Part shown: one piece after another, positions 3,901 to 23,962 of the stretch
How the letters are laid out: each line of letters starts with the position of its first letter
Numbering within the stretch: position 1 is the first letter of the stretch
From: Clostridia bacterium
Lineage (GTDB): Bacteria > Bacillota > Clostridia > Christensenellales > Aristaeellaceae
DNA: 37,365 nucleotides
NCBI GenBank assembly: GCA_017410455.1
Contig: JAFQQT010000065.1
Coordinates: forward strand, 1-37,365
Direction of reading: 5' to 3'
Notes under the pieces: generated by a model
What the model was told of the DNA's origin: nothing
The model's input: only the letters and a program-made list of their open reading frames with translations
Databases searched by the model: none
Made by a program: the position numbers and the translations under genes

Positions 3901-3913
3901 TGTTGATTCCTTC

Positions 3914-3943: not shown

Positions 3944-4044
3944 ACTTGCCCTGACATTTCCCGCAACCCGGGCGCGGTGTGTCACCTGAGCTGCATCGTG
4001 GGTGGCCGCACTGCGCTGTCATTTCTGCAATTGCATATGAAACA

Positions 4045-4085
4045 GGCTGCATGCCCGGGGTTGACCGGTTGCATGCAGCCTTTTC
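4045..4085. terminator. convergent stem-loop terminator
   Basis: GGCTGCATGC (4045-4054) and GCATGCAGCC (4071-4080) form a perfect 10-bp stem followed by TTTTCTG on the plus strand. It lies 14 bases after the stop of the minus-strand membrane-protein gene and probably ends that transcript, although the minus-strand tail (TGTTTCAT) is poor in T. Confidence 0.6.
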
Positions 4086-4093
4086 TGTTGGGA

Positions 4094-4522
4094 TCAATCA
4101 TCAATCGCCACTGGGGCATACCTGCCAACCAGCTCCGCGGTCCGTTCATTGCAGAAAACCTCAACCGTCTCGCCTTTGCAGTCCCGGATGACGAGCATGG
4201 TATAGCCGCCTTTCCGCCCACTGCGCGGTACATGTCGCCTCGTCACGGAAACCGCGTCCGTCCAGCGCACCTCACGCCAATCGCCAGCGATCTCGCGGCA
4301 CCGCACACCCTGCGCATCGATGATCTCCGCACACCGACTCAGCACATACACGCCCACAAACAAGACGCCCACTACGATCAGCACCAGCACGCCCAGCAGC
4401 ATCTGCAACTGCTGTAATGTCATGACCAGCGCCAGGCCCAACCCCAGCAACAGCAAGCCACTGATCGCCAGCACGCTGCAAAGCACAACCGGCCGGAATG
4501 AATACCGCACCTCATCCGCCAT
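4094..4522 (-). CDS. small membrane protein with two membrane helices and a cytoplasmic C-terminal domain
   Basis: A 142-residue protein not assigned to a named family. Two hydrophobic helices (about 12-33 and 38-60) form a hairpin. They are followed by a soluble domain of about 80 residues, rich in beta strands, with RCREIAGDWREVRWTDAVSV and VIRDCKGETVEVFCNE, a layout resembling bacterial PH-like membrane proteins. Its ATG lies one base after the stop codon of the esterase gene, and its ribosome binding site (GGGAGG) lies inside the end of that gene, so the two are surely co-transcribed and probably translationally coupled. It is the last gene of the mannan locus; a role in that pathway is not evident from sequence. 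Confidence 0.75.
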   Translation of the reverse strand: MADEVRYSFRPVVLCSVLAISGLLLLGLGLALVMTLQQLQMLLGVLVLIVVGVLFVGVYVLSRCAEIIDAQGVRCREIAGDWREVRWTDAVSVTRRHVPRSGRKGGYTMLVIRDCKGETVEVFCNERTAELVGRYAPVAIDD

Positions 4523-4523
4523 G

Positions 4524-5600
4524 TCAGTCCTCCCACACCCCCGGCAGGCTCCCGATGAACCCCGCCAACTCCTGCGCCATCACGGCCGCCTCGCTACCGC
4601 GGATGTGCCCGGGCGTGCCGCAGCCATTCTTCGTGTAGAGGAAGTGATGGACGCGCTCGTCCGTCTGCCGCATCTGCAGGCAGACCTCGTCGATGGCCCT
4701 GTCCCAGTTCTCGTGGTGGCCGAGGATGGTCGTCGCCAGCACGATGTGGGCACGGGGGTACCGGGTCCGCAGCTGCCCGATGAAGCGGCGGTACTCGCTG
4801 CGCCAGTGCCGCGCCGCCTCGCCGTCATAGTCCTCCGCCATGATGTTGACGGGGTTGTGGTCGTTCTGGCCGATGGCCACCACCACCACATGGGGCGTGT
4901 AGCGGCTGAAATCCCAGGGCGTCGGCTCGCCGAAGGGCGGGTAGTAGTTGATCTTGTCCCAGCAGGATTCCATGCCGATGTAGTCCGGGCCGAAGAAGTA
5001 GCCCGTGCCGTTCAGCAGCGCCATGCCGCCGGTGGCAATGTCGTGCAACTCCGCGCCCAGCAGCCGCGCCGTCTGCCAGGCGTAGCTGAGCCAGCTGTTG
5101 GAGTACAGGCCGTTGTGGCCCTCGGGATCCGGCTGGGCGCAGGCAAACTCCGCCTCGCTCACTTCGCCCGCGGACACGCTGTCCCCATATACCTCGATAC
5201 GCCGCGCAGGGCGAGGCGGCAGGGGCAGCAGCGCCGCATCTTCAGCGATGGCCAGCCCGACCAGGCGGTATGCGTGGCAGCAGTCCTGCCGCTTGAAGAG
5301 CAGCACATCGTTCTCCTCCGCCGTCAGCAGATGGCTCAGGTCGAGCTCCTGCTCGCCCTTCTCCAGCAGCACCGCCGTCTGTACACCGTTGACGATCACG
5401 CCCAGGCGGTTCTCGAAGTAGGAGTGGATGTTCTCCACCGCGATGCGCAGCGTGTGCCCCGACACGCGGAAGGCTACGCTGCTGCAGGGGTAGATGAAGA
5501 AGGGGCGCTCCGGCTGCTCCCAACCGATGCGGCCGGTGTAGCGCAGCATCGGGTCGTTCATGGGAATCCGCTTCTCGCCGGGGTTGAGGGTCATGTTCAT
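4524..5600 (-). CDS. SGNH-fold carbohydrate esterase, CE2-like (acetyl-polysaccharide deacetylase)
   Basis: A 358-residue protein built like CE2 esterases. An N-terminal beta-sandwich (about residues 10-125, with a PFFIYPCSSVAFRVSG core) precedes an SGNH hydrolase domain. The nucleophile serine is S141 in VYGDSVSAGE, the block III asparagine is in AIGQNDHNP, and the catalytic histidine is H332 in GTPGHIRGSEA. CE2 enzymes remove acetyl groups from xylan and glucomannan, fitting the mannanase gene in the same locus. There is no signal peptide, so it would act inside the cell on imported acetylated oligosaccharides; this is inferred. The start at 5600 is set by GGGAGG nine bases ahead; further upstream codons in frame have no such site. 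A good terminator separates it from the solute-binding protein gene above, so it may have its own promoter, but I found no convincing one. Confidence 0.82.
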   Translation of the reverse strand: MNMTLNPGEKRIPMNDPMLRYTGRIGWEQPERPFFIYPCSSVAFRVSGHTLRIAVENIHSYFENRLGVIVNGVQTAVLLEKGEQELDLSHLLTAEENDVLLFKRQDCCHAYRLVGLAIAEDAALLPLPPRPARRIEVYGDSVSAGEVSEAEFACAQPDPEGHNGLYSNSWLSYAWQTARLLGAELHDIATGGMALLNGTGYFFGPDYIGMESCWDKINYYPPFGEPTPWDFSRYTPHVVVVAIGQNDHNPVNIMAEDYDGEAARHWRSEYRRFIGQLRTRYPRAHIVLATTILGHHENWDRAIDEVCLQMRQTDERVHHFLYTKNGCGTPGHIRGSEAAVMAQELAGFIGSLPGVWED

Positions 5601-5620
5601 GTCAATACCTCCCTGCCGGG

Positions 5621-5664
5621 TGCTGATGCACAGGGGCCGTCCACCGCCCACCCACGCATCAGCA
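5621..5664 (-). promoter_or_regulatory. inverted repeat in the leader of the CE2-like esterase gene
   Basis: TGCTGATGC (5621-5629) and GCATCAGCA (5656-5664) are perfect 9-bp inverted copies, 26 bases apart, just upstream of the esterase ribosome binding site. It could be an operator or an mRNA stem; the sequence alone does not decide. Confidence 0.4.
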
Positions 5665-5757
5665 TCCGCCTTTCTGTGCCGTTTTCATTTCAAGCGCCGC
5701 CAGCCAACGCCGGAACCTTCGCGGGTACTATCACTTCAGGAACGCTCTGCAGCACCG

Positions 5758-5797
5758 AAAAAGCTCCCGGACACAGGGGTAAGCTGCGTCCGGGAGC
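5758..5797 (-). terminator. terminator after the second solute-binding protein gene
   Basis: On the minus strand a 10-bp perfect stem (5788-5797 with 5763-5772, GCTCCCGGAC and GTCCGGGAGC) is followed by TTTTTCGG (5755-5762). Confidence 0.85.
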
Positions 5798-5829
5798 GGG
5801 TTTACGTCAGGTCAGCGCGGTGTTCCGGA

Positions 5830-7197
5830 TCAGTTGCCCATCAGGCGATCCAGAGCGTCCTGCACCTGCTGCTTGTAGGTCTCCTGGAACTGAGCAACGG
5901 TGTAGTTGCCGTTCAGCAGGCCAACCAGGTCCATCTCGAAGCCCAGGTTGTTGACCATCTCCAGCATCTGCTTCTGGCCCATCTCGTACATCACGTTGAA
6001 GTTGTACTCCTGGAGCTCAACGTCCTTCGCGGTCACGCCGTACCACCAGCCGAGCGCCTCGTCGTCGTCACGGATGGACAGGTCGTCGTTGAACCAGTTC
6101 AGGATGTCGTACAGAACGTTGAAGACCAGCACCGGATCTTCCACGCCCACGGGGATCATGTAGCAGGAGGAGTCGGTGACCTTCTGAGCGTTGGTCTCCA
6201 GATCGCCGGAGGGGCCAGCGGGCCACGGCACGAACACCATGTCGAACTCGAGGACGGGGTAGTCATCGCCCTGCTGGAAGCCATAGTCCTTGTTGGAGTC
6301 CATGATCCACGCAGCGTTGGGGGAGAAGGCAACCTTGCCCTCGCGGTACAGGAAGCGGCAGATGTCCCAGCCGTTCTCAGCGGGGATGGGGTAAGCATAG
6401 CCGTTCAGGTACAGATCCTGCATGAACTGCAGGGTCTCAGCGACCTCGGGAGAAGACAGGTTCTCGGTGGCGCCAGCGGCGATGTAGGAGCCGTTGGACA
6501 TGACCAGCAGGGGGAAGTAGTCTCCCGGCCAGCCGCCGAAGCCGTAGATATCGGTCACGCCGTCGCCGTCAACGTCCTGGGTCAGGATCTGGCAGTACTC
6601 CAGGAACTTGTCCCAGGTCCACTCGCCGGCCTCGACCAGATCACGGGGATCTTCCAGGTTGGCGTCTTCGATCATCTGCAGGTTGAAGGACAGGGGGTAG
6701 GTGGAGCCGACCATGTTCTCCTTGTTCTTGTTGGTCAGCAGGGACACAGCGCCGTTGCCCACGTCGATGTAGGTCAGGACCTCGTCCTCGCCGGTGATGA
6801 CGGGATGGTCAGCGGGCAGGTAGTCGCGCAGGTCGATGGCGTAGCCGTTGGCAACCGCGGGGGCGCCGATGGCCAGGCCGATCATGTACACGTCCACGTC
6901 GGGGGTGCCGGCCATGATGGAGGTGTTGATGGACTCCTGAGCGCCAGCATAGAGCAGGTTGACGTACTCGAAGGTCACGCCCCACTCGGCCTCGACCTCA
7001 GCAACCTTGGCGAACATCATCTCGTCAGCCAGGGTGCCGGTGTAGTAGGGGTTGGCGTCGATGGACTCATGGGTGGAATCCCAGTACAGATCCCAGGTGG
7101 TGCCGATGAGGATGTGGCGGGGCTCTTCAGCGGAGGCGAAGGACGCAACAGACAGCAGCATCGCGATCGCCAGAACCAGAGCGGCAAACTTTTTCAT
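5830..7197 (-). CDS. extracellular solute-binding protein of a carbohydrate ABC importer (second system)
   Basis: A 455-residue family 1 (MalE/UgpB-like) solute-binding protein. It has a Sec signal peptide (MKKFAALVLAIAMLLSVASFASA, cut near residue 23), an N-terminal lobe with AEWGVTFEYV and SIMAGTPDVDVYMIG, and a tryptophan-rich C-terminal half typical of sugar binders (WTWDKFLEYC, FGGWPGDYFPL, FVPWPAGPSGD). DVDGDGVTDIYGFG is the acidic loop common in this family. There is no cysteine at the cleavage site, so it is not a standard lipoprotein, unusual for a Gram-positive binding protein. The permeases it most likely serves are the pair at 9430-11304, since both lie in the same strand run and the other permease pair has its own binding protein. 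AGGAGG lies 11 bases before the ATG. The ligand is probably a manno-oligosaccharide, inferred from context. Confidence 0.9.
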   Translation of the reverse strand: MKKFAALVLAIAMLLSVASFASAEEPRHILIGTTWDLYWDSTHESIDANPYYTGTLADEMMFAKVAEVEAEWGVTFEYVNLLYAGAQESINTSIMAGTPDVDVYMIGLAIGAPAVANGYAIDLRDYLPADHPVITGEDEVLTYIDVGNGAVSLLTNKNKENMVGSTYPLSFNLQMIEDANLEDPRDLVEAGEWTWDKFLEYCQILTQDVDGDGVTDIYGFGGWPGDYFPLLVMSNGSYIAAGATENLSSPEVAETLQFMQDLYLNGYAYPIPAENGWDICRFLYREGKVAFSPNAAWIMDSNKDYGFQQGDDYPVLEFDMVFVPWPAGPSGDLETNAQKVTDSSCYMIPVGVEDPVLVFNVLYDILNWFNDDLSIRDDDEALGWWYGVTAKDVELQEYNFNVMYEMGQKQMLEMVNNLGFEMDLVGLLNGNYTVAQFQETYKQQVQDALDRLMGN

Positions 7198-7250
7198 AGC
7201 TTGTCATACCTCCTGTTATGTCGATTGGGGTTGATAGACGCAAGCCCTGC

Positions 7251-7277
7251 GCCCGCCCCGCTCATAACAGAGCGGGC
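7251..7277 (-). other. intercistronic stem-loop before the second solute-binding protein gene
   Basis: CCCGCTC (7257-7263) pairs with GAGCGGG (7270-7276); a competing GCCCGC (7251-7256) can pair with the same arm. There is no T-run on either strand. In this place a hairpin could stabilise or process the mRNA between the repeat protein and the solute-binding protein. Confidence 0.45.
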
Positions 7278-7317
7278 GAAGGGTCAACGAACCAGCTTGA
7301 AAGAGGGAAGCGTCAGC

Positions 7318-9135
7318 TTACTGCGCCTGAGCAACGCTCACAGCGTAGACCTGCCAGTTGCCGGAAGCCTCGCACTGCATGCGGGCGCCCCAGGTGGACA
7401 CGTCCTCGCCCAGCACGGCGACCAGCTCGTCCCAGGTGATCTGGGCGGTCTTGCCGTCGCAATCGGCGCTCATCATCTCAACGCGCATCCAGCCAGCGGC
7501 GGAGTCGGGGAAGACCAGCCACATGTCGCCGGAGTCGGACTCGTAGGAGATGGTGATCACGCAGCCGGGCTTCAGGGCAGCGATGATTTCGGGGGTCATT
7601 TCCAGGCCGTTCTGGCCCCAGGCGCCGCCGGAGACAGAGAAGCCAGCGAAGTCAACCACGTCGTACAGACCAACGATCTCGTTGACCTTGCCGACGTTCA
7701 CGGCGTACACAGCCCAGTTGCCGGAAGCCTCGCACTGCAGGCGGGCGCCCCAGGCAGCCTTATCCTCGCCCACAACCTCAACGATCTGCTCGTAGGTGAT
7801 GTAAGCGTTGTTGCCCACGACCTTGGCGGACATCATCTGCACGCGGCTCCAGCCAGCAGCAGCGTCGGGCAGGACGATCCACATGTCGCCGGAGTCGGAC
7901 TCGAAGTTGATCTCCAGCGCGGTGCCGGGCTGCAGGGCATCCAGCACTTCCTGGGTGAAATCGAAGCCATTCTGGCCCCAGGCGCCGCCCTCGCAGGAGA
8001 AGCCCGCGAACTCGACCTTATTGGTCAGGGCGATCTTGGCGGTGGGGGTGCCGACCTTCACAGAGTACACCTTCCAGGCAGAGGAGCCTTCGCACTGGAA
8101 CATGGCGCCCCAGGTGGAGGTGTCCTCACCCAGCAGAGCCGCGAACTGCTCGTAGGTGATCTGAGCGGTGGTCTTGGAGTTGTTCTTGGTGGCCTGACCC
8201 TGCGCAACGCGGATCCAGCCAGCCTGAGACCAGGGCATGACAACCCAGATGTCGCCATCCTCGGACTCGTAGGAGATCTCAACCACGGAACCGGGCACCA
8301 GAGCGGCCAGGAACTCGGGGTTCATCTCAACGCCGTTCTGAGACCAGGCGCCGCCCTCGACGGTCATGCCGGCCAGATCAACGGTGTTCGTCAGCACGGA
8401 CAGGTTGCTCAGATCCGCCTCGGTGGCGGGAGCTTCCCAGATGACGCTCAGGTCCAGCGGCAGGACATTGCCCTCGGCGTCAAAGAACTGGATGTTGTCC
8501 AGGTAGATGTCGCGGGGCTCCTCGCCGGGGAACTTGTCGGAATCGACAAACGCGTCAGCTTCCTTGCTGAACATCAGGTATTCGCCCTGGCCAGCGGTGA
8601 AGTACACGTCCTTCAGGGTGACCTTGGCGGTCTTGGGGTTCTTGTTCTTCAGGTACACGGACCAGTCATAGCCGGTCTTCGTGGCGTCAGCACCGGTCAC
8701 GGTGTAGACCTTACCGGAAGCAGCATAGAACTTGCCGTCAGAGCCCAGCTCAACGCCCACGTCGAAGGTAATGGTGCGAACCTTGTCAAAGTTTTCGCCC
8801 AGAATGCCTTCCAGGTTCAGCGCGATGTAGGGCACCTTGGCCTTCACGTCCACGTGCAGGGCCTTGCTGCCGTTGTAGTCAACCACTTCCAGCGCGGACG
8901 CGTCGGCATTGCCGGCGGTGGTGTCAACGCCCAGGAAAGCGTAGTTGCCGTCTTCGAAATCGATGATCTCCACCAGACCGCCAGCAGCGGCAGCGGCGTC
9001 AGCATCGGGAGACGGAACCGTGTCAGCCACATCGCCAGCGGTGCCGGCGTCGGGAGACGGAACCTCTTCAGCCAGGCCAGCCACAGCCGTCAGCAGCAGC
9101 ATGGCGCACAGGATCCAGGAAAGAACCTTCTTCAA
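7318..9135 (-). CDS. secreted protein with N-terminal carbohydrate-binding-like domain and three tandem 118-residue repeats
   Basis: A 605-residue exported protein. It is read from a TTG codon at 9135: AAGGAGG stands eight bases ahead and MKKVLSWILCAMLLLTAVAGLAEE is a clear signal peptide. A short linker with two VPSPDA units follows. Residues about 50-235 look like a beta-sandwich binding domain (starting VEIIDFEDGNYAFLG and ending DIYLDNIQFFDAEG, the pattern of CBM4/CBM11-type modules). Then come three homologous repeats (about 247-365, 368-483, 486-603), each with FAGFxxxGGAWGQNG, a YESDSGDMW-type strand and a closing QCEASGNWxVYAVxVG. Conserved tryptophans suggest sugar stacking. I do not recognise a named family for the repeat. 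No catalytic motif is visible. Its place next to two binding proteins suggests capture of polysaccharide at the cell surface, which is inference. Confidence 0.75.
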   Translation of the reverse strand: MKKVLSWILCAMLLLTAVAGLAEEVPSPDAGTAGDVADTVPSPDADAAAAAGGLVEIIDFEDGNYAFLGVDTTAGNADASALEVVDYNGSKALHVDVKAKVPYIALNLEGILGENFDKVRTITFDVGVELGSDGKFYAASGKVYTVTGADATKTGYDWSVYLKNKNPKTAKVTLKDVYFTAGQGEYLMFSKEADAFVDSDKFPGEEPRDIYLDNIQFFDAEGNVLPLDLSVIWEAPATEADLSNLSVLTNTVDLAGMTVEGGAWSQNGVEMNPEFLAALVPGSVVEISYESEDGDIWVVMPWSQAGWIRVAQGQATKNNSKTTAQITYEQFAALLGEDTSTWGAMFQCEGSSAWKVYSVKVGTPTAKIALTNKVEFAGFSCEGGAWGQNGFDFTQEVLDALQPGTALEINFESDSGDMWIVLPDAAAGWSRVQMMSAKVVGNNAYITYEQIVEVVGEDKAAWGARLQCEASGNWAVYAVNVGKVNEIVGLYDVVDFAGFSVSGGAWGQNGLEMTPEIIAALKPGCVITISYESDSGDMWLVFPDSAAGWMRVEMMSADCDGKTAQITWDELVAVLGEDVSTWGARMQCEASGNWQVYAVSVAQAQ

Positions 9136-9285
9136 TTCGGTAACCTCCTTTTTCGTCCCTTTTCGGGACTTTCAGCACAACTGGGAACACCCGATGCAGG
9201 AGGCGCTCTCCTGCACCTATTTCACGGTGGCTCGCGCCGCCGCAGAAACCGGTTTGAAACGCACCAGATGTGCCATTCATCTAAC

Positions 9286-9315
9286 ATGATAGCACATTTG
9301 TTGCTGGCGCGTCAA
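9286..9315 (-). promoter_or_regulatory. internal promoter for the three-repeat protein and second solute-binding protein genes
   Basis: On the minus strand TTGACG (9310-9315) is 18 bases from TATCAT (9286-9291). It would give a leader of about 145 bases before the TTG start at 9135. Confidence 0.65.
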
Positions 9316-9338
9316 CCATTAATAGGATGGAATCGGTA

Positions 9339-9357
9339 CTTTTCGTGTTCCGAAAAG
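9339..9357. promoter_or_regulatory. possible operator upstream of the internal promoter
   Basis: CTTTTCG (9339-9345) and CGAAAAG (9351-9357) form a 7-5-7 inverted repeat about 24 bases upstream of the -35 box. Its position suits an activator site; no regulator is identified. Confidence 0.35.
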
Positions 9358-9384
9358 GTTTTCGCTCCACCCCTGTCCCCTGCC

Positions 9385-9414
9385 CTCCGGAGCAGCGCAA
9401 GGGCCGCTCCGGAG
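9385..9414 (-). other. GC-rich stem-loop after the distal permease gene
   Basis: CTCCGGAGC (9385-9393) pairs with GCTCCGGAG (9406-9414), 15 bases past the permease stop. No T-run follows on the minus strand, so it is either a weak terminator or an mRNA 3'-end stabiliser that lets some transcription pass into the next genes. Confidence 0.5.
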
Positions 9415-9429
9415 CAGGCCGGACCCGCC

Positions 9430-10368
9430 TTAACCCACGATACCGGAGCGCTCCACGCCTTCGACGAAGCGCTTCTGCAGCACCAGGTAGATCAGCAGGA
9501 TGGGCAGCATCACCAGCACCACGCCGGCGTTGACGTAGAGCTTCTGGATGCGGACGTTCATGATCTTCAGATTCGCGCCGATGTTGCTCTGCAGCGTGGA
9601 AAGCTGGCGGGCGAGCAGGGCCTCGTTGGGAATCTGGAAGAGCTTGGCGTAGAACATGTCGTTATACTGCCAGACCAGGGAGAACACCGTCACGGTGATC
9701 ACCGCCGGCATGGCGTTGATCAGCATGATGAAGAAGTAGGTGTAGGCGGTGTTGGCGCCATCCACGAAGGCCGCTTCCTCAATCTCCTTGGGCAGGCCGC
9801 GGAAGAACTGGTTGAAGATGTAGATGAACAGGCCGGAGCGCAGGCCCACGCCGAAGATGGACAGGATGTACATGGGCGTGGTGGAGCGCATCAGCTCCAT
9901 GGAGCGGAAGGTCATGTACTGGGGCAGCATGATGGTGTGCGAAGGCACGACGATCATGACCACCACGCAGGCGAAGAGGATCTTCTTGCCCGGGAAATCG
10001 AAGCGGGCAAAGCCGTAGCCGACCATGGAGCAGATGAAGACCTGCATCAGGGTGTTGACGATGGTGTACACCAGGGTGGACACGAGGGTGGACACATAGT
10101 CCAGCTCCTGCCAGGCGCCCTCGTAGCGCTCCAGCGTGGGGCTGATGGGGATGGTGAAGACCATGGGGTTGGCCGAGTCCGCATCAGAGAAGAAGGACTG
10201 ACTGATGATACCGATCACCGGGCTGAGGATGACGTAGGAGATGCCCACGATCAGGATGATCTTGAGGATGGTCATCATCAGGTTCTTGCTCTTCTTCACC
10301 ACCGCGCCCTTGCGATCCTCGTACCGGGAAGAATTGCGGAACTCTTGCCATTTGCTGATCAGCTGCAT
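9430..10368 (-). CDS. carbohydrate ABC transporter permease, MalG/UgpE type (second system)
   Basis: A 312-residue inner-membrane permease of the CUT1 sugar importer class. It has a cytoplasmic N-terminus, a first membrane helix at about 32-55, a long external loop (SFFSDADSANPMVF and YEGAWQELDYV) and five further helices. The EAA loop that docks on the ATPase is EIEEAAFVDGANTAYTYFF (about residues 200-218), and the protein ends with RFVEGVERSGIVG, a typical MalG-type tail. GGGAGG precedes the ATG by seven bases. It follows its partner permease by 18 bases, as the downstream MalG-type subunit usually does. No ATPase gene is in the window, so a shared MsmK-type ATPase elsewhere is expected; this is common knowledge for such loci. 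Confidence 0.92.
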   Translation of the reverse strand: MQLISKWQEFRNSSRYEDRKGAVVKKSKNLMMTILKIILIVGISYVILSPVIGIISQSFFSDADSANPMVFTIPISPTLERYEGAWQELDYVSTLVSTLVYTIVNTLMQVFICSMVGYGFARFDFPGKKILFACVVVMIVVPSHTIMLPQYMTFRSMELMRSTTPMYILSIFGVGLRSGLFIYIFNQFFRGLPKEIEEAAFVDGANTAYTYFFIMLINAMPAVITVTVFSLVWQYNDMFYAKLFQIPNEALLARQLSTLQSNIGANLKIMNVRIQKLYVNAGVVLVMLPILLIYLVLQKRFVEGVERSGIVG

Positions 10369-10386
10369 TCTGCTTTCCTCCCTTTC

Positions 10387-11304
10387 TCAGTTGTAGTAGA
10401 AGGTGCGCTTGGAGATGAACCACACCACCAGGGCCAGCAGCGCGCAGGTGATCACCGAGGAGATCACGCTGAAGGCGGAGGACAGGCCGTAGTTGCCCTC
10501 GGTGAAGGCGGTGGTGTAGGCCAGGTTGACGACCTCAGACTGGCTGAAGGCGTCCACGATGGTGTAGATGGTGTTGGTGATGATGTGGGGCATGACCATG
10601 GGGAAGGTGACCTTCCAGAAGGTCTCGTAGCCGGTCGCGCCCTCGATCTTGGCCACCTCGTACATGGAGGGGGTGATGGACTGCAGCGCGGCGATGAACA
10701 GCACGATCTGCACGCCGGAGGCCTGGATGATGTCGCTGATGCGGCCAACCGCACCGACGATGTAGTCCAGCACCGTGGTGGGCAGGGCGATCTCGCCGAA
10801 GAGGGCGATGAAGTACTGCATGTTGACCGCGCTGCCGCTGGCGGTGGCTTCCGCCATTTCCGCCGAGGTGCTGGAGAGGCCGCCGGCCATCATCTGCGCC
10901 GCGTAGCTCAGCGTGGAGGAGATGGCCTCGGAGTTGAGCAGCACCGGCAGGAAGAAGATGGCGCGCACCAGGCCGCGGCACTTCATCTTGCCGTTGAGCA
11001 GCATCGCCACAAACAGCGAGAAGAAGATGATCAGCGGCACGTCGATGACCATGTTGGTCAGGGAGGTGACTAGGGTCTGCTTGAAGGTGCCATGGCCGGT
11101 GAAGGCGGTGATGTAGTTGCCCAGGCCCACCCAGTCCAGCTCGTAGCCGCCGGAGGGCGGAACCGTCAGCTCGTTAAGGGAGAACTGCACCGTCATGAAG
11201 AGGCTGCGCACATAGAACAGCAGGAAGCCAATGAACCACGGCAGGATGAACAGATATCCGTTGCGGGCCCGCTTTGCCGCCATGGTGAGATGGATCTTCT
11301 TCAT
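10387..11304 (-). CDS. carbohydrate ABC transporter permease, MalF/UgpA type (second system)
   Basis: A 305-residue CUT1-type permease with six membrane helices. Its N-terminus MKKIHLTMAAKRARNGYLFI leads into a first helix (about 17-40). The coupling EAA-type loop is EVAKIEGATGYETFWKVTFP (about 220-239). An insertion near residues 130-155 (MAGGLSSTSAEMAEATASG) makes an external loop longer than usual. The start at 11304 was preferred over codons farther upstream because it overlaps the preceding stop codon as ATGA, with GGGAGG 11 bases ahead, the mark of translational coupling with the DUF5696 gene. Together with the permease at 9430-10368 it forms the channel of the second importer. Confidence 0.92.
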   Translation of the reverse strand: MKKIHLTMAAKRARNGYLFILPWFIGFLLFYVRSLFMTVQFSLNELTVPPSGGYELDWVGLGNYITAFTGHGTFKQTLVTSLTNMVIDVPLIIFFSLFVAMLLNGKMKCRGLVRAIFFLPVLLNSEAISSTLSYAAQMMAGGLSSTSAEMAEATASGSAVNMQYFIALFGEIALPTTVLDYIVGAVGRISDIIQASGVQIVLFIAALQSITPSMYEVAKIEGATGYETFWKVTFPMVMPHIITNTIYTIVDAFSQSEVVNLAYTTAFTEGNYGLSSAFSVISSVITCALLALVVWFISKRTFYYN

Positions 11305-13922: not shown

Positions 13923-13939
13923 ATCTTCGTCCCTCCCGC

Positions 13940-14572
13940 TTAAAACCTGAAGATGAGTTCGGTGTAGATGCTCTGGAAGAAGGCCACCACCTGGCCGACG
14001 AAGTTGGTGATCAGCAGCACCAGGAAGATGATGATGAACACCGCCACCAGCGTCAGCAGCAGGGTCAGCAGGGTCTTGCCCAGGGTGTAGTTATGCACCT
14101 GCATGATGCCGGTGAGGGCCATGAAGAGCGTGTAAGCAACGCCCACGCCCATCACGATGGCATAGAAGGCCTGCTCTCCATCGGCCAGGAACTGGCTGAG
14201 GATGGTCGCCAGGACGTAAGTGACGATCATGGGCAGCATCGCGTAGCCCACGGCGATGAGGATGTCCTTGAAGCGGCCCTCACCGTCCATCAGGCAGGTG
14301 ATGGACCAGTTGCCCACGCACATGAGGATGTACATCAGCACAACGCCGCCCAGCTCCGGCAGGAGGTTGACGCTGCGCACATTGATATCGCTGACGACGA
14401 AGGACGCCAGCAGGCGGTTCATCGAGAAGCACAGGCCGAAGATGAGCACCAGCAGCACCGCGATGGCAACGCTGCCCTTCTCCCTGTGGCGGATCCAGTA
14501 GTACCCGTCCGAGGGATGGGACACGGTGTAGAACAGGTGCGCCCATTTTTCCTTGCTGAAAAGCTGTTTCAT
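13940..14572 (-). CDS. YIP1-family membrane protein
   Basis: A 210-residue integral membrane protein with five predicted helices (about 35-57, 72-90, 102-122, 134-154 and 168-195). The N-terminal soluble stretch contains FYTVSHPSDGYYWIRHREKG, the usual opening of bacterial YIP1-domain proteins that sit next to DUF5696 and NHL genes. The Yip1 fold in eukaryotes works in membrane traffic; bacterial members have no known job, and a scaffold for the adjacent surface proteins is only a suggestion. The gene starts three bases after the NHL gene stops and ends 17 bases before the DUF5696 gene starts, so the three are one transcriptional unit. Confidence 0.82.
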   Translation of the reverse strand: MKQLFSKEKWAHLFYTVSHPSDGYYWIRHREKGSVAIAVLLVLIFGLCFSMNRLLASFVVSDINVRSVNLLPELGGVVLMYILMCVGNWSITCLMDGEGRFKDILIAVGYAMLPMIVTYVLATILSQFLADGEQAFYAIVMGVGVAYTLFMALTGIMQVHNYTLGKTLLTLLLTLVAVFIIIFLVLLITNFVGQVVAFFQSIYTELIFRF

Positions 14573-14575
14573 GGT

Positions 14576-17341: not shown

Positions 17342-17352
17342 GCTTCTCCTCC

Positions 17353-18291
17353 TTAATCCTTCATACCGGACGTGGTCATGGTTTCCAGAATGGACGACTG
17401 GCAGATGAGGAAGAAGGTTATGGGCACCGCAGCGATGATGAAGGTCACCGCAGCCGCCGCGCCCGCACGGGCCGCGCCGCCGGCAGTGATCTGCTGCAGG
17501 GCATACTGCATGGGCTTCAATTGCTCATCGTGCAGGAAGAGGGAGCCGGTGTTGCCCCACATCTGCTGGAACTGGAAGATGGCCAGGGTCAGCCACGCGG
17601 GCTTGACGTTGGGCATGACGATCTTCCAGAAGATCTGCCACTCGTTGGCGCCCTGGATGCGCGCGGACTCCATCAGGCTGTCAGGCAGCTGCTCCATGAA
17701 CTGCTTCATCAGATACAGGCCCATGCCGAAGCAGAACGCAGGCAGGATCAGTGCCCAGTAGGTGTTGTTGATGCCCAGCCAGGAGATGATGGCGTACTGG
17801 GGGATCTGCGTGACGGTCCAGGAGAACATCATCGACAGCACCACCATGCTGAACAGCAGGGGCTTGCCGGGGAAGTTGTGCTTCGCCAGCGGGTAGGCCG
17901 CAAGGGAGGCGATCACAACGTGACCCACCATGCCAAGGCCGGTGATGATCACCGTGTTCATCAGATACCGGCTGAAGGGCACCCAGGAGGTGTTCATCAG
18001 CACGAACAGGTCCGAGAAGTTCTCCAGGTGCGGGTTGCGCACGAAGATCTTCGGCGGGTACTGGAACAGTTCGTCCAGGGGCTTCAGGGCATTGTTGACG
18101 ATCATCACCAGCGGCAGCACCATGAAGACGGCGCAGATGCCCATGATGAAGAACAGCAGCGCATTGCCCGCCACGGAGCGGTTGAGCTTCTTTGACTTGA
18201 GGGAGGGCACGATCTTCTGCTGGCGCAGCTTCTTCTGCAGGTGGGGCGGCAGATCCTTGATCTGAACCTGACCTTTGACGATCTCGCTCAT
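17353..18291 (-). CDS. carbohydrate ABC transporter permease, MalG type (first system)
   Basis: A 312-residue CUT1 permease with six membrane helices after an unusually long cytoplasmic N-terminus of about 40 charged residues (KGQVQIKDLPPHLQKKLRQQ). The EAA loop is SLMESARIQGANEWQIFWKI (about 198-217) and is followed by MPNVKPAWLTLAIFQFQQMW. The protein ends with LETMTTSGMKD, the usual MalG-type ending. It starts three bases after its partner permease stops and belongs to the set with the CBM-bearing solute-binding protein. Its ATPase partner is not encoded here. Confidence 0.92.
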   Translation of the reverse strand: MSEIVKGQVQIKDLPPHLQKKLRQQKIVPSLKSKKLNRSVAGNALLFFIMGICAVFMVLPLVMIVNNALKPLDELFQYPPKIFVRNPHLENFSDLFVLMNTSWVPFSRYLMNTVIITGLGMVGHVVIASLAAYPLAKHNFPGKPLLFSMVVLSMMFSWTVTQIPQYAIISWLGINNTYWALILPAFCFGMGLYLMKQFMEQLPDSLMESARIQGANEWQIFWKIVMPNVKPAWLTLAIFQFQQMWGNTGSLFLHDEQLKPMQYALQQITAGGAARAGAAAAVTFIIAAVPITFFLICQSSILETMTTSGMKD

Positions 18292-18294
18292 GTC

Positions 18295-19227
18295 TTACTC
18301 ACCCACCCTTCCCAGCAGTTTCTGGATCAGCTTGTTGGTGCCCACCATCAGCAGGAACAGGATGGTGGCGATGGCGGAGGCGTAGCCCATCTCCATACGG
18401 GTGGAGCCGTAGTCCAGCAGATGGGTGACGATGGTGGCGCCGGCGTAGTTGACCGAGGGGTTGCCCGCCAGGTTGATGGAGATGTCAGCCACCGCGAAGG
18501 ACTGGGTGATCTGCATCACCGCGCCGAACATCAGCTGGGGCTTCATCGCCGGCAGGGTCACGAACCACAGCTCCTGCCAGCGGTTCTTGATGCCGTCGAT
18601 GGCCGCGGCCTCGTACATGCTCTTGTCCACCGTCTGCAGGCCCGCGATGAAGGACAGGAAGCCCGTGCCCAGGCTCAGCCACAGCTGAACGACGATCAGC
18701 ACCGGCATGATGTAGGCTTCCGTCTGCATCCACAGGATGGGCTCGTTGATGACGCCCAGGTTCAGCAGCAGGCCGTTGAGGTAGCCGTAGCGGTCGCCGG
18801 TGAGGATCAGGTTCCAGACCATGTAGGCGTTGCCGCAGATGGAGGGCGCGTAGAAGATCAGCGTCAGCACCGTGCGCAGGCCGCGGTTGAACTCATTGAT
18901 GATCCAGGCGAACAGCAGGCACAGCATGTAGCTGACCGGGCCGGTGATGACGGCGAAGATCAGCGTGTTCTTCAGCGAAGTCATGAAGATGTCGTCTTCC
19001 ACCAGGAGCTTGACGTAGTTGTTCCAGCCCACGAAGGAAGGCATCTCCAGCATGTTCCAGTCCGTGAAGGAAACGATGATGGACATGAGCACCGGCAGGA
19101 CGGTGAAGAAGAAGAACAGGATGAAGTACGGCGCGATCATCAGGTAGGAGGCCTGATGCTTCTGCAGCGTCTTCAACAGGGAGGGACGGCGATACTTGGG
19201 CGCCGCCGGATTGGTCACGACACTCAT
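18295..19227 (-). CDS. carbohydrate ABC transporter permease, MalF/UgpA type (first system)
   Basis: A 310-residue permease with six membrane helices; the first covers ASYLMIAPYFILFFFFTVLP (about 26-45). The family-typical VSFTDWNML follows it, and the EAA loop is MYEAAAIDGIKNRWQELWFV (about 203-222). The start at 19227 is chosen because GAGGAGGAG lies seven bases ahead, within the end of the upstream gene; in-frame codons further upstream fall inside that gene. The ATG follows the stop of the solute-binding protein gene by a single base. It pairs with the permease at 17353-18291. Confidence 0.93.
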   Translation of the reverse strand: MSVVTNPAAPKYRRPSLLKTLQKHQASYLMIAPYFILFFFFTVLPVLMSIIVSFTDWNMLEMPSFVGWNNYVKLLVEDDIFMTSLKNTLIFAVITGPVSYMLCLLFAWIINEFNRGLRTVLTLIFYAPSICGNAYMVWNLILTGDRYGYLNGLLLNLGVINEPILWMQTEAYIMPVLIVVQLWLSLGTGFLSFIAGLQTVDKSMYEAAAIDGIKNRWQELWFVTLPAMKPQLMFGAVMQITQSFAVADISINLAGNPSVNYAGATIVTHLLDYGSTRMEMGYASAIATILFLLMVGTNKLIQKLLGRVGE

Positions 19228-19228
19228 C

Positions 19229-22200
19229 TTACTCCTCCTCTGCGTTATCGGTCGTATCCACCGCATCATCCTCCGCAAGCTCCAGGCCGAACTCGGCGCG
19301 CTTGTAGTTGATCTCGGCGTTGATGTAGTAGACCTTGTCCATCAGCGCCTCGCGGGGGGTGGTGTTGTTGGTGGCGGTATCGGTGGTGACGGTGTAGAAG
19401 GCGTTGTTGACATTGCGCCAGGTGTAGTATCCGCCAGGCACCTGGGGGATGCCCTGCACATGCTCCAGCTGGGCGACGAGGGCCTTGTAGTCCTTCATGG
19501 GCCAGGAGAGGTTCGAAAGGGCTTCCGTGTTGGCGGTGGCCACGCGGGCAGAGGCGCCCATGAGGGATTCCATCTCGCGGCCGTAGGCGGTCTGGGTCTC
19601 GGCGCTGGTCCACCACTTCAGGAATGTCCAGGACTCCTCGGGGTATTCCGTGGCGCTCATGATGATGTCCGCCAGGCCGGAGGAGCCGGTGGCGCGGTTG
19701 ATCAGCTGCTCGCCGTTCTCATCCAGCACCGGGTCGCCGTTCTCGTCCACCACAGGGGTGCCGGGCACGACGGTGAAGTCCCACAGGCCCAGGATATCCG
19801 GGGCAGAGACCTGCAGGTTGTTGTAGGTGGTGTAATCGCTGATGATGATGGGCGCCTCGCCTGTGCGGAAGCGCTCCTCCGCGGAGGTCGCCTTGTCCAG
19901 CTTGTAGTCGGTGTAGTACTCGCAGTACTTGCGGAAGACGTTGATGGCCACATCCTCATCCAGCGCGGAGGCCTTTCCGCCCTCGGTGTAGTACTCGCCG
20001 CCGTTCTGGAACAGGAGCATGGCGAAGATCTGCTCGGAGGGCAGCATGCCGAACTCCATCTGGTTCTTGGCCAGCACGGACATGGCCACCTTCACATCAT
20101 CCCACGTCTGGGGGATCTCCAGGCCGATCTCGGCCAGGATGTCCTTGCGGTAGAACATCATGGGGAAGGTCATGGTGTCCGGCAGGGCGTAGGTGGCGCC
20201 GTTGAAGGTGAAGGGCACCAGAGAGGCAGGGGCGAAGCGCTCCGCCACCTCGTCAAAGTCCTCGAACTGCGTCAGGTCCATCACCGCGTTGCGCAGGCCG
20301 TAGTTGACGGGCGTATCGTTGCCGGTGTTCAGCACGCCGCCGGCAATGCCATTGGTGTTGGCCACCTGGATGGCCACGTCCGGGCCTTCGCCGGAGAGGG
20401 TGGCGCGCAGGAGGGTGTTCATGTCCACCAGCTGCACGTTGACGCGGATGTTGGGATACTGCACCGAGAAGCTGCTGTCGATCAGGGACTTGATCACATT
20501 GGCCTGGTCGCGGCCGGTGCCGATCCACAGCGTCAGCACCACGATGTCCTGGCCATCCTCGGTCTTTGCGCCGGCCTCGGTCACGTTGCCGACCTGGTTG
20601 TAGTCAATGATGAAGGAGTAGTACAGGCGGACTGCCTCATGGCAGATGCCGCTGAACCAGTCGGAGCCCTCGATCTTCACCTTCGCATCGGCGGAGTGGA
20701 TGTAGATGCGGTCCACCTGCAGGGGCTGGCCCAGCACCTGGGTGATCCAGTTGCCGCAGGCGCGCACATTGGTCTTGAAGGAGGAAAGTACCTCGGTGAA
20801 GCGCTCCTGATCCTCGATCAGCTCGTCCAGCTGGTCATCCATGGTGCGCAGGACCGTCAGCTTGTCGCTGTTGTTGCCCGCCACGGCTTCCAGCGCGCTC
20901 AGCGCCACGCGCAGATCCTCCTGCACCTGGATCAGCTGGCCCTCCAGCTCGGGCAGGCTGGCCTCGATCTGGTAGTCGCGGTACTGGTCAGGCGCCACGC
21001 CGGTGATGTAGATCACCTGGCGGTAGATGTTGTTGAGCTGCTGCACGCAGTCCTGCACCTGGGCGATGATGGTGGCCATATCGCCCAGCACGACCTCCAT
21101 GCGCAGAGTGTGGCGACCCGCGGTGAGGTAGACGCGGTAGGGTTCGCCGTCCTCGTCGCTCAGGGTCTCGGTGCGCCAGGTCTGGCCGTAGGAGAAGGGG
21201 TAGGCGTTGAACTCGTCAAAGGGCACGGCGCCGTCGATGTAGATCTTGCGGAAGACGTTGATGCCGCGCACGAAGTTCTGCTGGTCGTGCAGGGTGATGA
21301 CATAGTAGCCATCCTCCGCCACCTCGAACTCCCACTCGACCCACTGACCGGCGCTCTTCCAGCTGTTGCCGCCGATGGAGTTGTTCAGCAGGTAGCGGGT
21401 GCTGGCGGGATACACCGCCGCGGAGGACTGATCCTGCACGGGGTAGAGCATCTGGGAGGAGGTCTTGTCGGCGTTCTCGGCCTCGATGCGGATCATCTGG
21501 CCGGAGGAATCCTTCCGGCCCGCCGCCTCGCCCGCAGCCATCACATCCTCATAGGAAGCCGGACGCTCCGCATTGGCAAAGGTGATGGAGCGGATCAGCA
21601 TCGGCTCGCGCATGGACAGGAGGGAGATGGTGTGCGTGTCGCCTGCGGTGAGGTACACGCTGAGCTGCTCGGTGATGTAGCCGTTGGAATCGTACAGGGC
21701 GCCGTCGATCCACTCAGGCGTCTCCACGGCGGAGGGCTTGAGGTTGTTGCCCTGGTTGTCCGACTCCCAGCGGCGCAGGGTCACGCCGTTTTCGTCGGTG
21801 TACTTCTCGAAATCGCCGTTGCTCCACACGCGGAAGAACTCTACCAGCGCCAGCTCGCTGTAGGGCAGTTCGCCATCGATGAAGATGGCGCGCTGGATCT
21901 CGCTGTTCTTGCCCTCCACGGGGTAGTAGCGGATGGAGATGTCGTACAGGCCGGTCTCCGGCACGGTGAACTCCCACTCGATGAAGGATTCCTCCGCCGT
22001 GAGGACCGCGTTGCCGCTCTCGCCCTCATAGTCGGCCAGGATCTCAGGGGCATTCACCATCACGCCCTCGTCATAGCCTTCGTAGTGGGTGTAGCTGTCC
22101 GCCTCCACCACCTGGCTGACCGCGGGGCGCACAGCCTCCTCATGCAGTTCCAGATAATCGCCGTAGTTCACGATATCCGCGTTGATGGAATACGTGCTGA

Positions 22201-22339
22201 CGATCTCCTGATAGTCCGCCATGACGGACGCTGCAGCCCCCTGGGCCAGAGACAGGCCCGTCAGGCTCAGCACCATCACCAGCGCCAGCGCCAGGCAGCG
22301 CTCTGCCAGATGCAACTTCCTGCTCAACTTGTTCACCAT
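19229..22339 (-). CDS. giant solute-binding protein with N-terminal carbohydrate-binding-like domains (first ABC system)
   Basis: At 1036 residues this is more than twice the usual size for a sugar-binding protein. After a signal peptide (residues about 1-36, no lipobox cysteine) come two beta-sandwich domains resembling CBM6/CBM35 modules: about 60-265 (WEFTVPETGLYDISIRYYPV, then a YLTAGDTHTISL strand) and about 280-425 (IRIEAENADKTSSQML, WEFEVAEDGYYVITL, VYLTAGRHTLRMEV). A helical, coiled-coil-prone segment at about 425-520 (EGQLIQVQEDLRVALSALEA) leads to a family 1 solute-binding domain from about 590 (LTLWIGTGRDQANVIKSLI, GEGPDVAIQVAN, LPDTMTFPMMFYRKDILAEI, FLKWWTSAETQTAYG). The tail is very acidic. 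It lies between the mannanase and two permease genes. The fusion could hold polysaccharide close to the uptake site; this is inference. Confidence 0.85.
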   Translation of the reverse strand: MVNKLSRKLHLAERCLALALVMVLSLTGLSLAQGAAASVMADYQEIVSTYSINADIVNYGDYLELHEEAVRPAVSQVVEADSYTHYEGYDEGVMVNAPEILADYEGESGNAVLTAEESFIEWEFTVPETGLYDISIRYYPVEGKNSEIQRAIFIDGELPYSELALVEFFRVWSNGDFEKYTDENGVTLRRWESDNQGNNLKPSAVETPEWIDGALYDSNGYITEQLSVYLTAGDTHTISLLSMREPMLIRSITFANAERPASYEDVMAAGEAAGRKDSSGQMIRIEAENADKTSSQMLYPVQDQSSAAVYPASTRYLLNNSIGGNSWKSAGQWVEWEFEVAEDGYYVITLHDQQNFVRGINVFRKIYIDGAVPFDEFNAYPFSYGQTWRTETLSDEDGEPYRVYLTAGRHTLRMEVVLGDMATIIAQVQDCVQQLNNIYRQVIYITGVAPDQYRDYQIEASLPELEGQLIQVQEDLRVALSALEAVAGNNSDKLTVLRTMDDQLDELIEDQERFTEVLSSFKTNVRACGNWITQVLGQPLQVDRIYIHSADAKVKIEGSDWFSGICHEAVRLYYSFIIDYNQVGNVTEAGAKTEDGQDIVVLTLWIGTGRDQANVIKSLIDSSFSVQYPNIRVNVQLVDMNTLLRATLSGEGPDVAIQVANTNGIAGGVLNTGNDTPVNYGLRNAVMDLTQFEDFDEVAERFAPASLVPFTFNGATYALPDTMTFPMMFYRKDILAEIGLEIPQTWDDVKVAMSVLAKNQMEFGMLPSEQIFAMLLFQNGGEYYTEGGKASALDEDVAINVFRKYCEYYTDYKLDKATSAEERFRTGEAPIIISDYTTYNNLQVSAPDILGLWDFTVVPGTPVVDENGDPVLDENGEQLINRATGSSGLADIIMSATEYPEESWTFLKWWTSAETQTAYGREMESLMGASARVATANTEALSNLSWPMKDYKALVAQLEHVQGIPQVPGGYYTWRNVNNAFYTVTTDTATNNTTPREALMDKVYYINAEINYKRAEFGLELAEDDAVDTTDNAEEE

Positions 22340-22415
22340 CCATTCTCGTCGTTCGGTCGCGGCGGGTCGCCCCGCCTGCCTGCACAGAGGTATGCAAATA
22401 TGTATCGGAGCTGCG

Positions 22416-23882
22416 TCACTCTCCGGTGGGGTACGTCTTCAGGTCGGGCATGTTCTTGCGGGTGATGACGTTTTCGTGGCTGTAGACCTTCTTCACCATC
22501 GTCTTTTCGGTGTAGCGGTCGCTGTAGGCGTTGAAGCCCTGGCTCTTGAGCACGAACTCGCCCTCCCAGGTACACCACCAGGCCCACATCACATTGTCGC
22601 GGATGAGAAGGTCCGTGTCCGGGATGCAGCCGTTCTCCGTCAGGGCGATCAGCTTGCGGGCGTCCGTGTAGCTCAGGGCCCTGATGAAACGCGCCGCCTG
22701 GGAGGTGTAGACCTTTTCACCGGGGTAGATGTCCTCGCCGATGATATCGACGTATTCATCCCCGGGGTACCAGGCCGCATCCTGGCCGTTCCAGACCCAG
22801 ATGAGGTTGTTCAGGCCGTGATGGTTGGTCAGCCGGTCGTACATCAGCTTATACAGCTCCAGGTAGGGTTCCGGGCCGGAAGCGCCCCACCAGAACCAGC
22901 CGCCGCTGGCCTCGTGCAGGGGCCTCCAGAGCACCGGCACGCCCGCATCCTGCAGGCGCAGCAGCTGCACGGCGATGGTGTCGATGCCATCGAGCAGCAT
23001 CTGGTAGCCGGCAGGGTCCTGGCCGTTCATGGCCTTCGCCAGGCTGAAGGTGGTGCTGTCGGTGTAGAAGGCCGCGCCGTAGCGTTCATCGGCGTACCAG
23101 TGCCAGCTCAGGGTGATGATGCCGCCGTGCTTTTCCCAGTACTCGATGGCGCTCTCGGTCACCGTGGGCTGATCGCCCGCGCGGGCCCGGGAGGGGCTGT
23201 AATTGCCCACGTCCATGCCCAGCACCGCCGGGTAGGTTCCGCCCGTCGCCCGCCAGATGGACTGATTGTCCAGGCCATAGGCGCCCGCCTGGCACTGCTG
23301 GCCGGAGATGACGTTCCTGCCATAATTGTCGCACAGGAAGATCATCAGCTGCCGGGCCTCCTGCGTGGCGTTGGGGTTGATGAGCACGGGCTCCACGTCG
23401 TAGACGTCCTGGGGGATGGGGTCGCTCGCCCGCACGCCGATGGAGTCGATGTTGATCCAGCCCCAGCTGGTCTTCACCGCCACGGCGTTCTCCCCGGCCT
23501 CCAGCCAGACGTACTCCACCACGCCGTCGGACCATTGCGCGCCCTCGCTGGTGATGTCGCCCACGTTCTGCCCGTTGACCTCCACGGGGTTGACCTTCTT
23601 TCCTCCGCCCACGGAAGCCTGGCGCACCACCACGTCGTAGTGCCCGGCCTCCGGTACGGTGATGGTCACCTGCACGCCGTCGCCGGCCTTCTGCAGGCTG
23701 GTCACCACCGCGCCATTGACGCGGGCGCCGCCCAGCAGCTGGCCGTCTTCCGCTTCCACGCAGGTCAGCAGGCCGTTTTCCGCCGCTGCCGTGCCCAGCC
23801 ACAGGCCCGCCAGCGCAAGGCCCATGGCAACGCCCCGCCGCAGCAGGTTGCCAACGCTTCGTACATCCCTCATTAGCTTCAT
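22416..23882 (-). CDS. secreted GH26 beta-mannanase with N-terminal CBM35-like module
   Basis: A 488-residue exported endo-1,4-beta-mannanase. A signal peptide (about 1-35, ending GTAAA) is followed by a CBM35-like module (about 38-150: VEAEDGQLLGGARV, VTITVPEAGHYDVVVRQ, WLEAGENAVAVKTSWGWINI) and a GH26 barrel (about 165-480). Family signatures are the WHWY strand, the acid/base E324 in VLWRPLHEASGGWFWWG and the nucleophile E416 in ALTENGCIP. GH26 enzymes cut the main chain of mannan, galactomannan or glucomannan. It is the first gene after the promoter, so it sets the theme of the locus: outside cutting, then binding and import by the following genes. The start codon has only a purine-rich AAGAAAGAAGA ahead of it; a second ATG nine bases on is possible. 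Confidence 0.93.
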   Translation of the reverse strand: MKLMRDVRSVGNLLRRGVAMGLALAGLWLGTAAAENGLLTCVEAEDGQLLGGARVNGAVVTSLQKAGDGVQVTITVPEAGHYDVVVRQASVGGGKKVNPVEVNGQNVGDITSEGAQWSDGVVEYVWLEAGENAVAVKTSWGWINIDSIGVRASDPIPQDVYDVEPVLINPNATQEARQLMIFLCDNYGRNVISGQQCQAGAYGLDNQSIWRATGGTYPAVLGMDVGNYSPSRARAGDQPTVTESAIEYWEKHGGIITLSWHWYADERYGAAFYTDSTTFSLAKAMNGQDPAGYQMLLDGIDTIAVQLLRLQDAGVPVLWRPLHEASGGWFWWGASGPEPYLELYKLMYDRLTNHHGLNNLIWVWNGQDAAWYPGDEYVDIIGEDIYPGEKVYTSQAARFIRALSYTDARKLIALTENGCIPDTDLLIRDNVMWAWWCTWEGEFVLKSQGFNAYSDRYTEKTMVKKVYSHENVITRKNMPDLKTYPTGE

Positions 23883-23913
23883 TCTTCTTTCTTGTTAGTC
23901 TGTAGTTAAGTAA

Positions 23914-23925
23914 AGTGCAAGCACT
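23914..23925. promoter_or_regulatory. possible operator of the mannan locus
   Basis: AGTGCAAGCACT has arms AGTGC and GCACT around AA. It lies immediately after the predicted transcription start, where a repressor would block the promoter. No regulator gene of the LacI, AraC or GntR type is next to it. Confidence 0.4.
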
Positions 23926-23933
23926 CTGGGATA

Positions 23934-23962
23934 ATTATACTACACTTATCCCGCATGCGCAA
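23934..23962 (-). promoter_or_regulatory. main promoter of the mannan locus
   Basis: On the minus strand TATAAT (23934-23939) is preceded, after 17 bases, by TTGCGC (23957-23962). The expected start is near 23927, giving a leader of about 45 bases before the mannanase gene. Confidence 0.72.

Follow-up and report, generated by a model that had tools for sequence, protein, structure and literature searches.

Glycan uptake in Bacillota is usually pictured as the work of plain importers, each made up of a solute-binding protein (SBP), permeases and an ATPase. A 37,365-nucleotide stretch of DNA from a Clostridia bacterium of the Aristaeellaceae (GenBank assembly GCA_017410455.1, contig JAFQQT010000065.1, positions 1 to 37,365; hereafter the window) holds a thirteen-gene locus in which two ATP-binding cassette (ABC) importers of the CUT1 type enclose a core of NHL, YIP1 and DUF5696 proteins, with a GH26 mannanase upstream. 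Is this double importer peculiar to the locus, and what does it take up? We consider, with moderate confidence, that the locus is the β-mannan version, probably for acetylated glucomannan, of a conserved Bacillota double-importer cassette that would work in the way proposed below.

A conserved double-importer cassette

All thirteen genes of the original prediction were found by gene calling and Pfam, on the - strand from 23882 to 4094 and in the families it had named. In order of transcription they encode GH26-CBM35, SBP1, PermF1, PermG1, NHL, YIP1, DUF5696, PermF2, PermG2, a triple-CBM65 protein (CBM, carbohydrate-binding module), SBP2, CE2 and a small membrane protein (Table 1). The CUT1-type permease pair is present twice, with four BPD_transp_1 matches above cut-off, and SBP_bac_1/8 domains occur in both the 5830-7197 and the 19229-22339 proteins. 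Comparison of sequences across loci indicates a module A (SBP1-PermF1-PermG1) and a module B (NHL-YIP1-DUF5696-PermF2-PermG2, with SBP2 by position), around which the cargo differs between copies; from gene order, SBP2 presumably belongs to permease pair 2.

Two importers in one locus with such a core had been called not a standard arrangement, and here the comparison gave a different answer. Loci were taken from the window's own genome and its relatives, from named records (80 loci, the best of at least 573 confirmed, kept by similarity and in part from genomes that also supplied loci of the relatives) and from across the phylum (20 loci of our own choosing). This gave 147 annotated stretches, or 145 loci once two flanks without DUF5696 (L009, L011) were left out. 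The complete order SBP1-F1-G1-NHL-YIP1-DUF5696-F2-G2 is found in 97 of the 145; a further 13 have seven genes in order and lack only a separately labelled YIP1, and the remaining 35 are partial or otherwise arranged, the majority truncated by contig ends. Two importers around NHL-YIP1-DUF5696 are thus the usual form of the cassette, and the idea that the double importer is peculiar to this locus was rejected.

Some departures from the order are not contig-end effects. In L145, L146 and L149 module B comes before module A; in L143 and L144, both from genome G117, it stands without module A, in L143 beside an SBP and a pectate lyase. PermG1 lies farther along than usual in L043, and the copies in L045, L108, L138 and L148 are interrupted or miscalled. 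An SBP frequently follows PermG2, and in L132 and L145 is found upstream of the core instead. As separate observations, L144 (G117:C7:31000-50900) is a standalone set of an NHL-YIP1 fusion, DUF5696 and F2-G2 beside an apiosidase-like protein and a GH31, and in Clostridium sp. 12(A) (L112:15933-18300) and Lachnotalea glycerini (L126:16125-18705) the genes after SBP2 encode a DUF624 membrane protein and a GDSL esterase.

The window's genome has five DUF5696 genes, and each lies within the core order for as much of it as the contig covers. DUF5696 lay above its curated cut-off in 29/60 genomes and, in a search that scored at most three candidates per genome, in 43 of 398 genomes of the phylum, the window's own being included in both counts. 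Named records with close relatives of the protein are mostly metagenome-assembled Clostridia of the ruminant gut, Christensenellaceae and Lachnospiraceae. Among the carriers, Lachnotalea glycerini DSM 28816 and Clostridium sp. 12(A) have records that bear no metagenome-assembly mark, and both are therefore probably cultured.

Two importers inherited with one core

Several lines of evidence indicate, at the level of sequence, that modules A and B are two CUT1-type importers inherited together. In a non-redundant set of 82 loci, whose DUF5696 proteins are less than 75% identical, the pairwise-identity matrices of seven core families correlate with r of 0.80-0.98; for PermF1 against PermF2 r is 0.85, a value reached by none of 1000 permutations. 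Strong matches (E < 1e-100 for a profile of the SBP1 N-terminus, >300 bits for DUF5696) were found in 42 genomes for SBP1, in 41 for DUF5696 and in 40 for both, out of 398, the SBP1 profile having been searched, likewise with at most three candidates scored per genome, in a phylum sample of equal size whose listed handles coincide with those of the DUF5696 sample. As for the exceptions, the partial SBP1 match of G156 begins at contig base 1, and SBP1 in G157 and G199 reads toward a contig end less than 2 kb away. YIP1 at first appeared to be optional, a possibility rejected since it is fused to NHL where the separate gene is missing: of 22 loci with an NHL gene and no YIP1 label, 20 have YIP1 as the C-terminal domain of the NHL protein (E 1e-30 to 1e-74), as against none of 118 NHL proteins from loci with a separate YIP1 gene. 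One of the two unfused loci without the label holds an unlabelled YIP1 open reading frame (ORF).

The strongest competing explanation is that these are two independent CUT1 importers in one regulated cluster, A taking for example manno-oligosaccharides and B for example cello-, xyloglucan- or side-chain sugars, with NHL, YIP1 and DUF5696 serving importer B alone. The occurrence of NHL-DUF5696-F2-G2 without SBP1-F1-G1 at the two loci of G117, the three loci with B before A, and the CBM65 modules, which suggest a β-glucan component beside mannan, all favour it. However, among the 398 genomes a strong match to SBP1 almost always goes with one to DUF5696, and G117 itself has SBP1 on three other contigs. 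We regard independent importers as possible, though clearly less likely than a joint cassette.

Exchangeable enzymes around the core

The genes that accompany the core were clustered, and 168 of 202 representatives from the same-strand run were scanned in sets of 31, 74 and 63; those left out were 10 shorter than 200 residues, the 22 shortest in the last set and two single ORFs, an NHL-like one from L045 and another from L148. As controls, 75 of 223 representatives from outside the run were sampled and 73 scanned, two L148 ORFs being omitted for seemingly unreliable gene calls at that locus. Neighbours were tallied by family and not locus by locus, over the first 25 families of each set, and counts of carbohydrate-active enzymes are therefore lower bounds.

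Glycoside hydrolase (GH) or polysaccharide lyase matches numbered at least 46 among 137 operonic representatives and at least 6 among 73 controls. The set of 74 is biased to long proteins, and the smaller set of 63 is for this reason given alongside: at least 32 matches among the 74 and at least 14 among the 63. Among the families listed, the 74 include GH43 (10), GH10 (6), GH26 and GH32 (3 each) and GH36, GH42, GH3, GH51 and GH2 (2 each), where GH51 and GH36 are what we take to be the labels for the corresponding Pfam names; the 63 include GH43 (5), GH10 (3), GH130 (3) and one each of an apiosidase-like protein, a pectate lyase and GH5. The 31 representatives directly after PermG2 include, among those listed, SBP_bac_1 (11), GH30 (2) and GH31 (1), and the 73 controls GH43 (3) and one each of GH94, GH26 and GH38. 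A core found mostly without glycan genes, the outcome named beforehand as speaking against a glycan role, is not what this family tally shows. Because the cargo varies (GH43, GH10, GH26, GH32, GH130, GH30, GH31, pectate lyase), the core is not mannan-specific; it is a glycan module with exchangeable enzymes, of which the window holds the mannan copy.

DUF5696, a predicted GH129-like fold

DUF5696 matches a GH129-like fold over its full length, with profile similarity to NagBb at E 3.6e-14, although the Pfam matches of the window protein at E <= 1 are confined to DUF5696 itself and a weak SteA-like_C, with none to GH129. With GH129 and GH129-like enzymes (NagBb, ZgGH129/DagB) and GH101 it has in common a β-sandwich, a TIM barrel and a C-terminal β-domain. 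Unlike them it is anchored in the membrane at its N-terminus, has a longer N-terminal region, appears not to conserve the acid/base residue and is tied to CUT1 importers. GH101 was above cut-off in 2 of 249 genomes.

It is possible, though doubtful to much the same degree as independent importers, that DUF5696 represents a new GH family close to GH129, GH101 and GH36 and acts at the membrane as an exo-glycosidase, which would trim α-linked side sugars before import. Besides the full-length fold match, this draws support from conserved acidic residues in the 82 non-redundant loci: Asp661, matched by order and spacing to NagBb Asp435/DagB Asp486, is kept in 62, Asp729 in 73 and Glu767 in 80, the catalytic residues of NagBb and DagB being taken from PMC5698469. 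The position of the DagB acid Glu517, however, is Glu in only 23 of the 82 and Gly in the window protein, in a HMMER stretch of negative score, and some clades lack Asp661; nor does co-occurrence with β-backbone enzymes (GH10, GH26, GH43) suggest a single α-linked sugar. A search for GH129 sequences to align gave no match to the Pfam model in 199 genomes or in any control, and a tblastn search of plasmids with a NagBb fragment gave none either. The equivalence of catalytic residues thus rests on order, spacing and weak alignments.

Proposed assignment of the window copy to β-mannan

The closest solved relative of the window GH26 is a β-mannanase, the Podospora GH26-CBM35 enzyme 3zm8, with which it aligns over residues 33-445 of 488; the two glutamates of 3zm8 that we take to be catalytic are both matched. 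A GH26 orthologue lies upstream of SBP1 in the congeneric species G001 (L157:14126-15607, 822 bits), where the whole locus order is kept, GH26 included, and in G010 the stretch from DUF5696 to CE2 is kept on a short contig. The sole NCBIfam match of CE2 is the AxeC2 acetylxylan esterase/glucomannan deacetylase model, at 82 bits against 500, far below cut-off. No signal peptide was seen by eye in its reading frame, and CE2 is therefore probably intracellular. On contig C53 of the same genome, an epimerase, GH36, LacI, two GH130 and an esterase are consecutive, while the scanned genes of this locus include neither GH26 nor a CUT1 importer; by analogy with Roseburia, this cluster would be the intracellular half of a mannan pathway. 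GH26, CE2, the C53 genes and the congeneric locus agree with a machine that cuts, holds and imports (acetylated) β-mannan, as originally proposed from the sequence.

A cargo of xyloglucan or mixed β-glucan, and not β-mannan, appears improbable. It would account for the three CBM65 domains, since the CBM65A/B modules of E. cellulosolvens favour xyloglucan over linear β-glucan tenfold in binding (PMC10992016), but the window GH26 is nearest to β-mannanases, CE2 is nearest to a glucomannan deacetylase model, and mannan catabolic genes lie on another contig of the genome.

Gene content, gaps and anchoring

The window is an entire contig (C54) of a 3.3 Mb genome in 93 contigs and has a G+C content of 62%; no tRNA and no RNA family above gathering score was found in it. 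Genes were called with a home-made codon-usage caller, good for order and not for exact starts.

Table 1. Features of the locus, its intergenic sites and the related cluster on contig C53.
Feature	Position	Strand	Evidence
Secreted GH26 β-mannanase, N-terminal CBM35	22416..23882	-	Pfam GH26 E 9e-71, CBM_35 E 4e-16; phmmer vs 3zm8 E 1e-79
SBP1: N-terminal membrane/signal helix, CBM6-like (72-256), CBM35-like (279-551, helical insert), then SBP_bac	19229..22339	-	
PermF1, CUT1-type permease, importer A	18295..19227	-	Pfam BPD_transp_1; start from gene caller
PermG1, CUT1-type permease, importer A	17353..18291	-	Pfam BPD_transp_1 E 3e-17
NHL β-propeller + TPR-like protein, hydrophobic N-terminus, C-terminal transmembrane segment	14576..17341	-	Pfam NHL E 6e-15
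YIP1-family polytopic membrane protein	13940..14572	-	Pfam Yip1 E 8e-15; six hydrophobic segments
DUF5696, N-terminally anchored GH129-like β-sandwich + TIM barrel protein	11301..13922	-	Pfam DUF5696 E 4e-185
PermF2, CUT1-type permease, importer B	10387..11304	-	Pfam BPD_transp_1; start from gene caller
PermG2, CUT1-type permease, importer B	9430..10368	-	Pfam BPD_transp_1 E 1e-9
Promoter-like site, PermG2/CBM65-gene gap	9286..9315	-	Consensus scan, 10/12 matches
Secreted protein, three CBM65 modules	7318..9135	-	Pfam CBM65_1 E 2e-69, three stretches
SBP2, solute-binding protein, given to importer B by position	5830..7197	-	Pfam SBP_bac_8 E 1e-13
Terminator-like hairpin, SBP2/CE2 gap	5763..5797	-	14 pairs, 10 G-C, then TTTTT
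CE2 acetyl esterase, no evident signal peptide	4524..5600	-	Pfam CE2_N E 2e-22; NCBIfam AxeC2 E 3e-23, below cut-off
Small protein, hydrophobic N-terminal half (by eye)	4094..4522	-	No Pfam/NCBIfam match
Epimerase, GH36, LacI regulator, two GH130, SASA esterase	L183 (G000:C53:29000-47500), 2964-11512		

The description of NHL, YIP1 and DUF5696 as three surface proteins was loose: YIP1 is a polytopic membrane protein, and the other two have hydrophobic membrane segments, at 1 and 888 in the NHL protein, whose TPR_2 match is weak and below the Pfam cut-off. The tiny gaps reported for the locus hold inside the core, where packing is tight (567 gaps between core genes of the 82 non-redundant loci have a median of 3 bp, and 98% of them do not exceed 100 bp), and not outside it, where 294 bp separate PermG2 from the CBM65 gene and about 229 bp separate SBP2 from the likely ATG of CE2 (5600). 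The first of these gaps holds the promoter-like site, the only one in the scanned region against a shuffle mean of 4.4, so that such sites are rarer than in shuffles; the second holds the terminator-like hairpin, a class with 15 members against 9.6 (sd 3.6) in shuffles. With these sites in the larger gaps the thirteen genes need not share one transcript; a single transcript is doubtful on this evidence, and we expect two or three.

A lipobox pattern was found in 6 of 124 SBP1 proteins (118 were without it), but four of the seven SBPs of the window's genome with a readable N-terminus likewise lack it, and its absence was dropped as a special feature of SBP1. Elsewhere in the window, a DUF1836 gene (24188-24739), a possible regulator, directly precedes the GH26 gene and is read in the same direction; a MORN-repeat protein (716-2404) and a 540-residue protein with an N-terminal ECF sigma-factor match (31521-33143) are encoded on the + strand.

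Proposed working

In the reading that we favour, of a mannan version of a conserved cassette, GH26-CBM35 would cleave mannan outside the cell, and the triple-CBM65 protein and the CBM6/CBM35-like modules of SBP1 would hold the chains at the surface. Oligosaccharides would be imported through the two permease pairs, both powered by one MalK-type ATPase whose gene lies elsewhere; the genome has five OB_MalK matches above cut-off, none of them on the window's contig. The NHL-YIP1 unit and the anchored DUF5696 may make up a scaffold on the outer face of the membrane, through which glycan handling would be coupled to the importers, with the GH129-like barrel binding, trimming or gating chains, its catalysis being uncertain. 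Inside, CE2 would deacetylate, and GH130, GH36 and the epimerase from the other contig would complete sugar processing, with phosphorolysis.

Several points weigh against this reading. The order counts are weakened by the composition of the sample, with its named loci kept by similarity, its overlap of genomes and its author-chosen loci; genome relatedness itself raises the correlations between identity matrices; and conserved order and co-inheritance are also compatible with one regulon holding two separate importers. The catalytic residues of DUF5696 are not uniformly conserved, the terminator-like hairpin separates CE2 from the remaining genes, and the preference of CBM65 may, by analogy, mean that the glycan is glucomannan or includes xyloglucan.

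A bolder version, which we think unlikely, is that the permease pairs, NHL-YIP1 and DUF5696 are joined in one supercomplex in the membrane, the equivalent for single-membrane cells of SusCD-like glycan uptake, in which SBP1 would hold a long chain by its CBM-like modules, DUF5696 would cut or thread it, and fragments would be passed to coupled importers. Least credible is that NHL, YIP1 and DUF5696 together sense or regulate the state of surface glycans and take no part in uptake: an anchored β-propeller and a glycosidase-like fold could bind a ligand, and YIP1 has no assigned role here, but Pfam matched no signalling or DNA-binding domain in the three proteins, and in the loci examined their genes go together with permease genes.

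Relation to known systems

CUT1 importers that use a shared MsmK/MalK ATPase have in common with this locus the BPD_transp_1 pairs, the SBP_bac domain and an ATPase not found in the locus, with MalK-like proteins elsewhere. Unlike ordinary CUT1 importers, the cassette has two pairs as one unit, an SBP1 fused to CBM6/CBM35-like modules and three extra membrane proteins. A β-mannan ABC transporter with two binding proteins was reportedly described in Bifidobacterium animalis by Ejby in 2019, as cited in PMC13278490; going by the title, it likewise has more than one SBP for mannan uptake, but as one transporter, whereas here there are two permease pairs and an NHL-YIP1-DUF5696 core.

The mannan locus MULL of Roseburia intestinalis is described (PMC6385246) with one importer of one SBP and two permeases. 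It has in common with ours a GH26 mannanase, CE2 with intracellular deacetylation, and intracellular processing by GH130, epimerase and GH36, here on another contig; it differs from the two permease pairs, two SBPs, NHL-YIP1-DUF5696 core and separate intracellular locus of the window's genome, and a word search of its text gave no match to NHL. Yip1, NHL and DUF gave no word matches in a review of thermophile sugar transport (PMC11212667). The Paenibacillus JDR-2 transcriptome, in the portion examined (PMC4765114), shows ordinary importer cassettes and so gives no expression support for the double importer. Searches of open-licence full texts for the cassette or its proteins listed no description of the cassette, and the term DUF5696 occurs in none of those papers.

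The cassette thus seems to be a fibre-uptake machine not yet described, a new form of CUT1 glycan-import locus. Bacillota degrade much of the plant fibre of gut and rumen, and the cassette is widespread, with strong DUF5696 matches in roughly a tenth of the phylum genomes searched and several copies in some genomes, its two importers nearly always accompanied by the same three little-studied membrane proteins. DUF5696 gains a fold and a context, YIP1 is linked to NHL by gene fusion, and there is now a testable claim of how the capture of glycans at the surface might be linked to their transport in bacteria with one membrane.

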